Part shown: positions 37,653 through 41,628 of the stretch, one piece after another
How positions within the stretch are numbered: position 1 is the stretch's first letter
How the letters are laid out: every line of letters starts with the position of its first letter
Assembly: GCF_000745975.1 (NCBI RefSeq)
Contig: NZ_JQKJ01000001.1
Span: forward strand, 186,001 to 250,000
Length of the DNA: 64,000 bases
From: Desulfobacter vibrioformis DSM 8776
GTDB taxonomy: Bacteria > Desulfobacterota > Desulfobacteria > Desulfobacterales > Desulfobacteraceae
Reading direction: 5' to 3'
The notes under the pieces: model-generated
Told to the model about the DNA's origin: nothing
Databases searched by the model: none
What the model saw: the letters and a program-made list of their open reading frames with translations, nothing else
Program-made: the position numbers and the translations under genes

Positions 37653-39029
37653 ATGACAGATACAATTGCCGCAATAGCCACCCCTTTTGGAAGCGGCGGC
37701 ATCGGTGTCATACGGATTTCAGGACCCGCGTCCTTTGATCTGGCTGCTAAAATTTTTTCAAAGACGCCGGCCGATGGGGAAAAAAAGGCACCGCAGTTTA
37801 TTTCCCACAGGGTAAGCCACGGCTTTATTTGTGACGGGGATACCACGGTTGACGAAGTGCTTGTCATCCCCATGAAAGCCCCGCGGTCTTATACAGCCGA
37901 GGACGTTGTGGAGATCCAGGCCCATTCCGGCACCATTGTGCTTCGACGCATTTTAGACCTGCTGTTCAGCCTTGGGGCGCGCCCGGCAGAACCCGGGGAA
38001 TTTACCCGGCGGGCCTTTTTAAACGGCCGCATAGACCTGACCCAGGCCGAAGCTGTGGCAGACATCATCAATGCACGGTCAGACTCCTCCCTTAAATTTG
38101 CCGCCTCCCAGAATCTTGGCGTGCTGCGCCAAAGTATCCGGGACATGATATCTGTCCTGACCCAGTTTCTTGCCCGGCTTGAGGCTGCCATTGATTTTCC
38201 CGATGATGCCGGTGCCTTTTCCTACACCAGCCAGGATAAACCCAAGCTTCAATCTGTTGCAGACAGAATAGGGGAGCTTATCCAGCAACACAAGGATGCC
38301 TGTTTTTTGAAAACCGGCATACGCCTGGCCATCTGCGGAGAGCCCAATGTTGGAAAATCCAGCATCATGAACCGGATTCTGGAAAAGGAAAAATCCATTA
38401 TCACGCCCATTCCCGGCACCACCCGGGACCCCATTGAAGACAGCCTGACCATTGAGGGTATCCCCTTTGTCATTGTTGATACGGCCGGTATCCACCAGAC
38501 CGATGATCTTGTGGAGATCATCGGCATTGAAAAAGCCAGGGACGAGATAGACGTTGCGGATATTGTTCTGTATGTGCTTGAACCGGGAAAACCCTTTCCC
38601 TGGAAAACCGTATCAAAGATCTTTACAGAAGATAAGCCGGTCATTTTTGCCATCAATAAAATGGACCTGGCTGATGAACTTGATCCGCCCCATTTGCCTG
38701 AGAAATATGCTGATCCTGGCCCCCTGGAAATCTCTGCACTCACAGGGCAAGGCATCAATCGCCTTAGAACAAGGCTTCTGGAAACCTGTATCGGCAACCT
38801 TGAGATTGGAGGTGATGCAGTCATTCCCAATCTGCGGCATAAAAACGCCCTGGTCCAGGCACTTGGGCATATGACAACGCTGATGGAAGGGCTTGAAAAC
38901 GGCCAGGAAGAAGAAACCCTGGCACTGGATGTTAAAAATTGTATTGACCATCTCGGGACAATTACCGGGGACACTGCGCCTCCGGATATCCTTGACGCTG
39001 TTTTTAATAATTTCTGCATTGGGAAATAA
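37653..39029 (+). CDS. mnmE: tRNA modification GTPase MnmE
   Basis: The 458-residue protein has the N-terminal tetrahydrofolate-binding domain (opening DTIAAIATPFGSGGIGVIRISG) and a helical domain. An inserted GTPase domain has P-loop GEPNVGKSS at about 228-236, DTAG in the switch region and NKMD. It ends with the conserved CIGK tail. With MnmG it makes the aminomethyl-type modification at tRNA wobble U34. Its ATG follows the jag stop with no gap. MnmG is not next to it here. Confidence 0.95.
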   Translation: MTDTIAAIATPFGSGGIGVIRISGPASFDLAAKIFSKTPADGEKKAPQFISHRVSHGFICDGDTTVDEVLVIPMKAPRSYTAEDVVEIQAHSGTIVLRRILDLLFSLGARPAEPGEFTRRAFLNGRIDLTQAEAVADIINARSDSSLKFAASQNLGVLRQSIRDMISVLTQFLARLEAAIDFPDDAGAFSYTSQDKPKLQSVADRIGELIQQHKDACFLKTGIRLAICGEPNVGKSSIMNRILEKEKSIITPIPGTTRDPIEDSLTIEGIPFVIVDTAGIHQTDDLVEIIGIEKARDEIDVADIVLYVLEPGKPFPWKTVSKIFTEDKPVIFAINKMDLADELDPPHLPEKYADPGPLEISALTGQGINRLRTRLLETCIGNLEIGGDAVIPNLRHKNALVQALGHMTTLMEGLENGQEEETLALDVKNCIDHLGTITGDTAPPDILDAVFNNFCIGK

Positions 39030-39190: not shown

Positions 39191-39841
39191 ATGGACTTGG
39201 ATAAACATTTTGTAAAATATGAAGCGGTCGTCGGTATGGTGGACCAGGTCTTTGACCGGGTTAAAAAGGAGTTCTCCAAAGAGGTGTTCTGCAGGGAAAA
39301 ATGTTCTGACTGCTGCTATGCCATTTTTGATCTGACCCTGATAGAGGCCCTGTACCTGAACCACAAGTTTAATGAAAAATTTTCAGGCAATGAAAAAGCT
39401 GATCTGATCGCCATTGCCGATAAAACAGACCGGGCTTTGGCCAAAATGAAACGGGACGCCTACAAAAAAGTCAAGGACGGGGCTGACCAGCTTGAAATTG
39501 TGGCAAAAATGTCCCAGGAACGGGTCCGCTGCCCCCTTCTGGGTGAAAACAATCTGTGCCTGATGTACGAGTACCGCCCCATTACCTGCAGGGTATACGG
39601 GATACCCACCTCCACGGCCGGAGCCTCCCACATCTGCGGTCGGACCAATTTTGTTCAAGGCAAGGCCTATCCCACCCTGAACATGGACAAAATTTACACC
39701 CAGCTTCAGCTTTTGTCTGCGGAACTGGTCAAGGAGATCAACTCGTCCAACATTCGGATGCATGAACTGCTTATCCCTGTATCCATGGCCATGGTCACCC
39801 TGTTTAACGATGAATTTCTTGGAGTGAAAAAAGATGAGTGA
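39191..39841 (+). CDS. YkgJ-family cysteine-cluster protein
   Basis: I take the ATG at 39191 (MDLDKHFVKY, 216 residues) because AAAGGT lies 6 bases upstream; an upstream ATG at 39173 falls inside the repeat's end. Conserved cysteines lie in CREKCSDCCY (about 40-50) and in RCPLLGENNLCLMYEYRPITCRVYG (about 115-140), with a later ICG. This is the CxxxCxxCC plus C-C pattern of the YkgJ family, thought to bind zinc or an iron-sulfur cluster. The function is unknown. It overlaps the next gene by 8 bp. Confidence 0.8.
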   Translation: MDLDKHFVKYEAVVGMVDQVFDRVKKEFSKEVFCREKCSDCCYAIFDLTLIEALYLNHKFNEKFSGNEKADLIAIADKTDRALAKMKRDAYKKVKDGADQLEIVAKMSQERVRCPLLGENNLCLMYEYRPITCRVYGIPTSTAGASHICGRTNFVQGKAYPTLNMDKIYTQLQLLSAELVKEINSSNIRMHELLIPVSMAMVTLFNDEFLGVKKDE

Positions 39842-40193
39842 GACCTACTTCTCCCCGGAGGAAATTGAAGAAAGAAAAAAGGCCATTTTCGATGCCATGG
39901 GAAAACGGGGCCAGCGGCAGATCATGAAAACAGGGTATGACAACTGGGATCCGTTCCAGGAACCCAAGGATCCCATTGACATCCGCAAGGATAAAACCAA
40001 ACGGACTTCCCAGGAGCTGATCCGGGAGTTTCTCACAGCCATTGATGCGGATGACTATTCCAACAGCTATGCCCAGGGCGCCCTTGAAATGTGTCTTGGC
40101 ATCATCAATGACGAGGAAAAAATCAGGGGCATGTTTGATTTTGCCCACTGGTATACAAGACTGCTTGAAAAAGAGGGACATGATCCCCTTTGA
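39834..40193 (+). CDS. conserved hypothetical protein, 119 residues
   Basis: A small, charged, soluble protein (SEETYFSPEEIEE-like opening, then GKRGQRQIMKTGYDNWDPFQEPKDP) with no membrane segment or known motif. The GYDNWDPFQEPKDPIDIR stretch is likely its conserved part. It overlaps the YkgJ-like gene by 8 bp and the methyltransferase gene by 14 bp, so all three are translationally coupled. That suggests a common role, but I do not recognise it. Confidence 0.75.
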   Translation: MSETYFSPEEIEERKKAIFDAMGKRGQRQIMKTGYDNWDPFQEPKDPIDIRKDKTKRTSQELIREFLTAIDADDYSNSYAQGALEMCLGIINDEEKIRGMFDFAHWYTRLLEKEGHDPL

Positions 40194-40992
40194 CCGGGAC
40201 CGCGCCCTGGAGATTCTGAATAATGCCACGGCACGCCTGACGGCAAGGGCTTATATCCGTGAAATCAGCCGGGAATTTGACCTGACACCATTCCAGGCAA
40301 AAAAAGTGCTTACATCCCTTGTGGCGCGCCAGGATGTGGCTTACCAGGATCTGTATGGATCCACCTATGTCATGGAAAGCTTTTCAAAACCGGTCCGGAT
40401 CACGGACCGGTTTTTTATTCTGCCCCCTGGTATTGAAAGCATTGCCGGTCCCAATGATATCGATATCCGGATAAGCGCGGGGATCTCCTTTGGCACCGGC
40501 CACCACCCCACCACCCGGCTTTGCCTGGCTGCCCTGGACAGGCTTTTTTTCTCAACAGGCCTTCCAGGCCACCTCCAGGGCGGCAAAGCAGGGGATATCG
40601 GCACGGGGTCAGGGGTGCTTGCCATGGCGGCCTGCCTTGCCGGCATGTCCCAATGCATGGCCTGGGAAACAGACCCCAATGCCGTCTGCGAGGCCTGCAG
40701 GAATGTGGCAGCCAACGGTCTTGAAAACAGGGTAAATGTCATTCACGGCATCATGTCAACCCAGGATTTAAAGCTTTCTCTTGTTATGGCCAATTTAAGG
40801 TTTCCCACCCTTAAGCAACTTGCATCTGACATTTGTTCCATCCTGGTACCCAACGGACATCTGATTCTTTCAGGGGTCAGGGCCTGGGAAATGGATAATC
40901 TGAAAACCCATTACAGGGCCATGGGATTTTCCATAGACTGGGAACGGGAAGCAAAACAGTGGGGGGCCCTGGCCCTGACAAAAAAGCCATAA
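40180..40992 (+). CDS. PrmA-like class I SAM-dependent methyltransferase
   Basis: I take the ATG at 40180 (MIPFDRDRALEI, 270 residues), with GAGGG just upstream. The frame itself runs further 5', inside the previous gene. The N-terminal 70 residues form a small helical domain. The methyltransferase core shows the PrmA signature ISAGISFGTGHHPTTRLCL, the SAM-binding motif GDIGTGSGVLAMAA, and VMANLRFPTLKQL, where PrmA has ANIL. PrmA trimethylates ribosomal protein L11. This protein's N-terminal domain differs from canonical PrmA, so the substrate may differ. Confidence 0.8.
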   Translation: MIPFDRDRALEILNNATARLTARAYIREISREFDLTPFQAKKVLTSLVARQDVAYQDLYGSTYVMESFSKPVRITDRFFILPPGIESIAGPNDIDIRISAGISFGTGHHPTTRLCLAALDRLFFSTGLPGHLQGGKAGDIGTGSGVLAMAACLAGMSQCMAWETDPNAVCEACRNVAANGLENRVNVIHGIMSTQDLKLSLVMANLRFPTLKQLASDICSILVPNGHLILSGVRAWEMDNLKTHYRAMGFSIDWEREAKQWGALALTKKP

Positions 40993-41001
40993 GGGGAAAG
41001 C

Positions 41002-41628
41002 ATGCATCCTGCCATTCAAATTCTTGTACCCGTGCTTCTGGTTTTGGGCGTGTCCCAGGCCAGATGTGATGTGTACAGCTGGACAGACGAAAACGGGATC
41101 AGACACTTTTCCAATGTCAGTTCTCCCCAGGGAAAAAAGGCAACACAAATACGAGAATCTGTCAGTTCCGGCCCAAAGAAAGCAGACACATCCAATTTTC
41201 TGGTCACAAAGGTTTTTGACGGGGATACGGTGCAGGTTCAAGGGCAGGATCTTGAATTTATAATTCGCATGGTGGCCATTGACGCCCCGGAAACCGGCGG
41301 ATCAAAAAACAAGGGCCAGCCCTATTCCCAGGAAGCGAAAAACGTTTTAAAGCAACTCATTCAAGGTAAAAAAGTCCGGCTGAAACAATACGGTACCGGC
41401 GGGTACAACCGGATTCTGGCAGAAATTTTTTCCCAGGGCATCAACATTAATCTGGCCATGGTCCGCCAGGGGCTTGCCGAAGTTTACCGAGGCAGACTCC
41501 CTGAACATCTTGATCCCGGCCCCTACAAGAAGGCTGAGGCTGATGCCAGGCGCAGAAATGCAGGCATGTGGTCCCAGGGGAAGACTTATAAGAGTCCCAA
41601 AACATGGCGGAAAGAAAATCCCAGATAA
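41002..41628 (+). CDS. secreted thermonuclease with DUF4124 domain
   Basis: The 208-residue protein has a signal peptide (about 1-22) and a DUF4124 motif (VYSWTDENGIRHFSN). A staphylococcal-nuclease domain (about 65-195) follows, with DGDTVQV, RMVAIDAPETG and the catalytic-type Arg in the YNRILAEIF segment. Periplasmic DNA/RNA cleavage is expected. It follows the methyltransferase by 9 bp and is probably the last gene of that operon. Confidence 0.85.
   Translation: MHPAIQILVPVLLVLGVSQARCDVYSWTDENGIRHFSNVSSPQGKKATQIRESVSSGPKKADTSNFLVTKVFDGDTVQVQGQDLEFIIRMVAIDAPETGGSKNKGQPYSQEAKNVLKQLIQGKKVRLKQYGTGGYNRILAEIFSQGININLAMVRQGLAEVYRGRLPEHLDPGPYKKAEADARRRNAGMWSQGKTYKSPKTWRKENPR

Follow-up and report, generated by a model that had tools for sequence, protein, structure and literature searches.

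Three overlapping genes of Desulfobacter vibrioformis with a very probable link to the dissimilatory sulfite reductase system

The genome of Desulfobacter vibrioformis DSM 8776 contains a run of three overlapping genes, encoding a cysteine-cluster protein, a small protein of no named family and a PrmA-like methyltransferase, which raises the question of what the three proteins have in common. The run is located in a 64,000-nucleotide stretch of contig NZ_JQKJ01000001.1 (positions 186,001 to 250,000), referred to here as the window, from the first letter of which positions are counted. The ykgJ-like gene (39191..39841, + strand) encodes a 216-residue cysteine-cluster protein of a dsr-linked subfamily of PF03692. 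The p119 gene (39834..40193, + strand), the ATG of which lies within the 3' end of ykgJ, encodes a helical protein of 119 residues. The PrmL gene (40180..40992, + strand) encodes a 270-residue protein when read from the ATG at 40180, as is done here; the list of open reading frames gives a TTG at 40042 as an alternative start. The overlaps measure 8 bp between ykgJ and p119 and 14 bp between p119 and PrmL. The common thread of the three genes is a link to dsrAB, the genes of dissimilatory sulfite reductase. DsrAB, which makes sulfide in sulfate-breathing bacteria, is the key enzyme by which microbes produce this compound. We consider it very likely that ykgJ, p119 and PrmL are linked to the Dsr system.

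The co-occurrence with dsrA was determined in a sample of 297 genomes of the phylum, all of which were searched for dsrA and for the YkgJ profile. The dsrA gene scored over the cut-off in 143 genomes, and G481, whose dsrA lies in two fragments at contig ends, brings the total to 144. The p119 gene is present in 47 of the 297 genomes, and all 47 carry dsrA (Fisher p 1.6e-17, ignoring shared ancestry). YkgJ matches of at least 120 bits were found in 68 genomes, 67 of them with dsrA (Fisher p 1.2e-24, likewise ignoring shared ancestry); the single exception, G295, is 67% complete and has a weak dsrA match only. Where p119 and dsrA share a contig, they lie within 10 kb of each other in 16 of 24 cases, all 16 on the same strand and drawn from seven families. 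The corresponding numbers for ykgJ are 25 of 36 cases, 22 on the same strand, from ten families. The control gene mnmE is represented by 149 rows among the matches listed, 92 in dsrA genomes and 15 on the dsrA contig. None of these lies within 10 kb of dsrA (0 of the 15 on a shared contig and 0 of the 92 rows), and the nearest is 12.0 kb away.

The clustering with dsr genes takes several forms. In f25, another family of the same order, ykgJ, p119, PrmL and a gene for a tetratricopeptide repeat (TPR) protein precede dsrA-dsrB-dsrD-dsrN in the same orientation (L204, L205, L207). The gap between the TPR gene and dsrA spans 1.4–1.5 kb in these loci; it holds a 404-residue open frame in L204 (5103-6314, minus strand), for which Pfam and NCBIfam yielded nothing at E <=0.01, and no trustworthy open frame was found within it in L205 and L207. 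In G062, of family f28, PrmL directly follows dsrN in the order dsrA-dsrB-dsrD-dsrN-PrmL (L265). Runs of dsrA-dsrB-dsrD-TPR-ykgJ are present in L218-L223, L229 and L230, and ykgJ is located near dsr genes in further families. The order p119-TPR-dsrA was found in L182, L184 and L210, where p119 is grouped with TPR, dsrA, dsrB and dsrN; between L182 and L184, dsrD was called only in the latter. In L195 and L196, p119 is accompanied by TPR, FKBP, dsrD and dsrN, and in L195 by dsrC as well. The order ykgJ-p119-TPR is present in L185, L188 and L197, and YcaO-TPR-ykgJ-p119 in L186 and L200. Identities were checked on examples, with curated models over cut-off for DsrA, DsrB, CobB-type DsrN, AhbA, AhbB and DsrC, and by Pfam for YcaO, TPR, HEAT, FKBP and DUF6955. 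The DsrD genes were named by sequence likeness and position, as the one DsrD scanned with curated models matched no dsrD model.

Further genes surround these clusters. Two additional PF03692-type genes flank the TPR-dsrABDN run of the window's own genome (L208 3394-4224 and 11009-11515; C1:252983 and C1:260682), and genes like the first of them, which has a CFTDCC motif, are also located near dsr genes in L195 and L196. In most of L216-L231, L234 and L235, ykgJ and TPR have a HEAT-repeat gene as neighbour, usually on the opposite strand; in L197 such a gene follows TPR. Directly 5' of p119 in the dsr runs of L182 (6343-6666) and L184 (6012-6335) is a gene that clusters with the DUF6955 (PF22271) protein of L184. 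The gene directly 5' of ykgJ in L186 (1292-3079) and L200 (7210-8946) encodes a YcaO-TPR protein, a close YcaO relative of which is encoded in the window's genome beside a mutY-like gene, at an unlinked position (L211 7254-8981). DVU2210 of D. vulgaris is a YcaO-TPR protein that is named once in the available text of PMC8319347; its deletion together with sat leads to molybdate resistance in mutants that keep sulfite respiration, according to the accessible portion of PMC7774982. The likeness of DVU2210 to the proteins of L186 and L200 is an analogy of domain make-up only.

The arrangement of the trio was compared in 80 named loci, which were fetched by p119 and contain it by construction, and some of which end at contig ends. 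The ykgJ gene was found in 78 of the loci, mnmE in 69, PrmL in 41 and an SNase-type nuclease gene in 31. Counted over gene pairs that share a strand and lie within 1 kb, 41 of 77 ykgJ-p119 pairs show the 8-bp overlap and 28 of 40 p119-PrmL pairs the 14-bp overlap; the counting script picked starts near the homologous position, which biases both counts toward equal overlaps. The arrangement recurs across relatives and is not due to chance. The nearest named p119 relatives belong to Desulfobacter: a metagenome-assembled genome labelled D. postgatei carries a p119 with 97% identity, and D. latus one with 90%. The genes yidC, jag and mnmE are located upstream of the trio; mnmE (37653..39029, + strand) is the usual upstream neighbour in the order, and as far as we know it has no functional part in the set. 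The SNase-type nuclease gene with DUF4124 (41002..41628, + strand; SNase 87.4 bits, both families by Pfam) starts 9 bp past the end of PrmL. Its distance from PrmL varies from -16 to 1272 bp (29 pairs). Together with the presence in only 31 loci, this variable spacing makes the nuclease a looser neighbour and rules it out as part of the set.

A preliminary description of the locus, made from the window alone, had reported the three overlapping genes with the nuclease 9 bp behind them, which the coordinates confirm. It had also taken the tight overlap to imply joint production and named loss of the gene order in close relatives as the observation that would speak against it. The order is retained in close relatives, and the recurring overlaps agree with joint translation. 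Two other parts of the description are not supported, the nuclease as a member of the unit and the methylation of neighbouring proteins by PrmL, which is discussed below. The statement that the YkgJ-like and 119-residue proteins have no known role is correct for the families as named, but the dsr neighbourhood now suggests a role that can be tested.

PrmL is related to PrmA, the methyltransferase of ribosomal protein L11 (TIGR00406, PF06325), with which it shares the catalytic domain. It matches PF06325 with 143 bits against a cut-off of 22, and the motif DxGTGSG of the S-adenosylmethionine (SAM) site is intact, with D139, G141-G143 and G145 invariant. Unlike PrmA, PrmL scores below every PrmA equivalog cut-off (TIGR00406, 122.1 against 183.15), and its match starts at profile position 102 of 296, so that the PrmA N-terminal domain is missing. 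The N-terminal part of PrmA recognises L11. In a tree of 94 PrmA-family proteins, all 50 PrmL proteins, including the dsr-linked relatives from L204, L205, L207 and L265, are set off together by a 100/99 branch. The PrmL clade is separate from true PrmA, of which the window's genome keeps its own copy elsewhere (L009), and from another PrmA-like family. The score and the tree rule out that PrmL is an ordinary PrmA. The other PrmA-like family, which the tree separates from both PrmA and PrmL, adjoins true prmA in L243 and L244 (G019, G026). A search of 28 genomes with PF06325 identified PrmL in 15 (G000, G004, G013, G026, G038, G045, G058, G059, G061, G062, G063, G064, G065, G070, G166).

The place of the PrmA N-terminal domain is occupied in PrmL by a predicted winged helix (40180..40401, + strand), whose resemblance to DsrD is suggestive. 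DsrD (PF08679), an allosteric activator of DsrAB, is itself a winged helix with a protein as its target, as described in the available text of PMC11406059. The PrmL N-terminus is near DsrD in length and has the pattern AKK-LV-Y-G-T in common with it. Pfam DsrD was matched by 16 of 39 whole PrmL proteins at E <=1, and it was the most frequent family among the N-termini, with 14 of 33 matching at E <=1 and a best value of 4.6e-6; the next winged-helix family reached four. Alignment by hhalign of the PrmL N-terminus with DsrD gave 95.4% and 87.4%, compared to 18.6% with the helix-turn-helix of AhbAB and at most 1.1% in 30 trials with column-shuffled DsrD. These comparisons make it probable, with some reserve, that the PrmL N-terminus is homologous to DsrD. 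An 86-residue DsrD-like winged-helix protein is encoded in G059 away from the dsr cluster (L293 3566-3826, minus strand), and the PrmL N-terminal profile matches it with 9.8e-7.

The YkgJ protein of the window scores 28.8 bits with PF03692, above the gathering cut-off of 23, and is a member of that family. Eight cysteines are invariant across 76 YkgJ sequences (34, 38, 41, 42, 114, 123, 133, 149). The flagellin lysine-N-methylase FliB (NF038110) has an N-terminal cysteine cluster of the same kind. According to the accessible text of PMC8598068, its conserved cysteines also number eight, and it contains a [4Fe-4S] cluster that lysine methyl transfer requires. YkgJ differs from FliB in its length of about 216 residues, compared to the 373 positions of the model, and in its score of 16.1 bits, compared to an equivalog cut-off of 85; no link of YkgJ to flagellin was seen. 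Since the equivalog score is not reached, the likeness is one of working parts only. The p119 protein has a conserved stretch around GYxxWDPFxxPKDPID and no match above cut-off in Pfam, nor any in NCBIfam. The AlphaFold models of YkgJ (mean pLDDT 89.0, pTM 0.87) and p119 (mean pLDDT 84.6, pTM 0.55) have no PDB match with E <5, and the two folds are therefore uninformative on function. Weak Pfam matches of YkgJ (protamine-like, E 0.087) and p119 (M1, E 0.14) were taken as chance.

We tentatively favour the hypothesis that the three genes are accessory genes of DsrAB, which in the lineage of the window are positioned behind mnmE, away from the dsr operon, with their order and overlapping starts retained. 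The DsrD-like winged helix would dock PrmL on DsrAB itself or on an attached DsrC or DsrD. The docked PrmL would then methylate a residue of DsrAB or of the bound partner, a step that we regard as more doubtful than the hypothesis as a whole. The cysteines of YkgJ may carry an oxygen-sensitive iron-sulfur (Fe-S) cluster, and the protein could act on the same target, either by donating a cluster or as a further modifying enzyme akin to FliB. The p119 protein may be an adaptor that joins PrmL and YkgJ to the TPR protein encoded beside dsrA. In a bolder version, which we consider rather improbable, DsrAB would be modified after translation by a dedicated set of proteins: the DsrD-headed PrmL, YkgJ as a FliB-like Fe-S methylase, YcaO-TPR in some lineages (L186, L200), and p119 with the TPR protein as a scaffold. 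Methyl-coenzyme M reductase is the comparison case of an enzyme modified in this way.

Several observations weigh against the accessory-gene hypothesis. Contiguity with dsrAB is a feature of other lineages, and not of the window's own genome, in which the TPR-dsrA-dsrB-dsrD-dsrN run (L208) follows the trio at a distance of about 30 kb, on the same contig and strand. The co-occurrence tests ignore shared ancestry, for which families were counted instead. Strong ykgJ is missing from 20 of the 47 p119 genomes in the phylum sample; 27 genomes have both genes and 41 have strong ykgJ only, so that p119 and ykgJ are not a fixed pair. PrmL was not found in 13 of the 28 genomes searched with PF06325 (G019, G031, G034, G060, G287, G292, G300, G328, G343, G411, G458, G514, G521) and is thus not generally required for DsrAB. 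The first four of these belong to the same order as the window and keep p119 and ykgJ, which shows that the presence of p119 does not always call for PrmL. The substrate and the activity of PrmL are predictions.

The link is also weaker in a sample of the class. The p119 gene is present in 216 of these 241 genomes, mostly as a single match (two in G230 and G252). Both p119 and dsrA over the cut-off were found in 192 genomes, dsrA only in 16, p119 only in 24 and neither in nine (Fisher p 0.0025); five of the p119-negative genomes in this test are those missing from the p119-positive list. Among the 13 p119-negative genomes that are at least 90% complete, eight have a strong dsrA, G040 and G176 have weaker matches, and G047, G050 and G198 have no dsrA match or one near 1e-10. 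It is possible that the genomes with p119 only are drafts that have lost dsrA.

The comparison with DsrD is subject to further objections. The N-terminus of the window's PrmL scores 18.3 bits with Pfam DsrD, under the cut-off of 24.2, and because of this we do not claim membership in the DsrD family. Ten PrmL relatives were scanned singly; four match DsrD at E <=0.1, none scores over the cut-off (best 23.4), and both f25 members have no DsrD match. The PrmL domain lacks most of the DsrD invariants such as WSSGSTT, and it differs from DsrD in being fused to a methyltransferase. In whole-genome searches with the N-terminus, the gene in the DsrD position is the best match besides PrmL in only four of eight genomes: it ranks first in G521 and G411, both without PrmL, comes second to PrmL in G045 and, with E 0.7, in G004, and is not the best match besides PrmL in G000, G058, G059 and G070. 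The other match in G059 is the 86-residue DsrD-like protein mentioned above. DsrD was recognised in these searches by its distance to dsrA, and in G411 by its call in L193. A profile search of the PDB with the PrmL N-terminus placed the winged helix of AraR first (E 0.00024) and DsrD third (0.011).

The alternative that survives best, although we consider it unlikely, is that the set handles cofactors. YkgJ, p119 and the TPR protein would manage the delivery of siroheme or Fe-S clusters to DsrAB, or would apportion siroheme to DsrAB and to heme synthesis, and PrmL would modify or control a step of this process and not DsrAB. A fused AhbA-AhbB siroheme decarboxylase gene is located directly 5' of p119 in L189-L194, L198 and L199, in lineages without strong ykgJ; both halves of the fusion score over cut-off in L194. 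Genes of the dsr system are present in the same stretch in L189, L191, L192, L193 and L199, and none was found in the fetched stretches of L190, L194 and L198. The same clusters include dsrN, a candidate for siroheme amidation in the available part of PMC6018796, and the cysteine set of YkgJ suits Fe-S binding. The evidence of the link to Dsr is shared by this explanation and the accessory-gene hypothesis. Delivery of cofactors, however, leaves a dedicated methyltransferase unexplained, and YkgJ and p119 have no resemblance to known siroheme or Fe-S chaperones, neither model having a PDB match.

A regulatory function of the set is quite unlikely. The winged helix of PrmL would bind DNA or RNA, and a redox-sensitive YkgJ would report the state of the cell to adjust dsr expression. 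The PDB search described above, which retrieved DNA-binding winged helices, agrees with this, and genes close to dsr may often be regulatory. However, a methyltransferase with an intact SAM motif is attached to the helix, which favours a modifying enzyme, and DsrD demonstrates that a winged helix of this system can act on a protein.

It is very unlikely that the trio forms a translation unit with yidC, jag and mnmE, in which PrmL methylates a ribosomal protein or a tRNA-modifying enzyme. The frequent upstream position of mnmE and the PrmA family of PrmL speak for it. The rating is low because outside the order the pair leaves mnmE behind and follows dsrA, and mnmE itself is not near dsrA; moreover, the genome keeps a true PrmA, and PrmL is without the PrmA N-terminal domain. 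The suggestion of the preliminary description that the methyltransferase modifies YkgJ or p119, which the recurring 14-bp overlap of p119 and PrmL might favour, is just as improbable, since both proteins are conserved in many genomes without PrmL (present in 41 of 80 loci and 15 of 28 genomes) and PrmL is encoded apart from both in G062, G065, G038, G045, G061 and G063.

The literature search returned no account of ykgJ, p119 or PrmL together with dsrAB. The named dsr accessory genes dsrC, dsrD, dsrN, dsrT, dsrV and dsrW are, like the trio, carried with dsrAB in reductive-type organisms, but these names are not applied to ykgJ, p119 or PrmL in the available portions of PMC10504309, PMC6018796, PMC10591310, PMC11406059 and PMC13047784. 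Part of the finding may be in print under no name, because the accessible part of PMC6018796 draws four unnamed syntenic genes in the dsr clusters of Acidobacteria. The main text of a D. vulgaris fitness study (PMC10102598), in which the genes of the window were not looked up by locus, does not mention YcaO, TPR or DsrC, and the available text of PMC8528874 contains nothing on ykgJ, p119 or PrmL.

What is new here are probable accessory genes of a known Dsr system, one of them with an unusual combination of domains. The proteins occur in the majority of genomes of a single order of sulfate reducers, are tied to dsrAB and are assigned no role in the literature searched, so that direct tests of how DsrAB matures and is controlled come within reach. 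Should PrmL mark DsrAB, the enzyme from these organisms would bear a modification that has so far escaped attention, and a foreign host would produce the enzyme without the mark.

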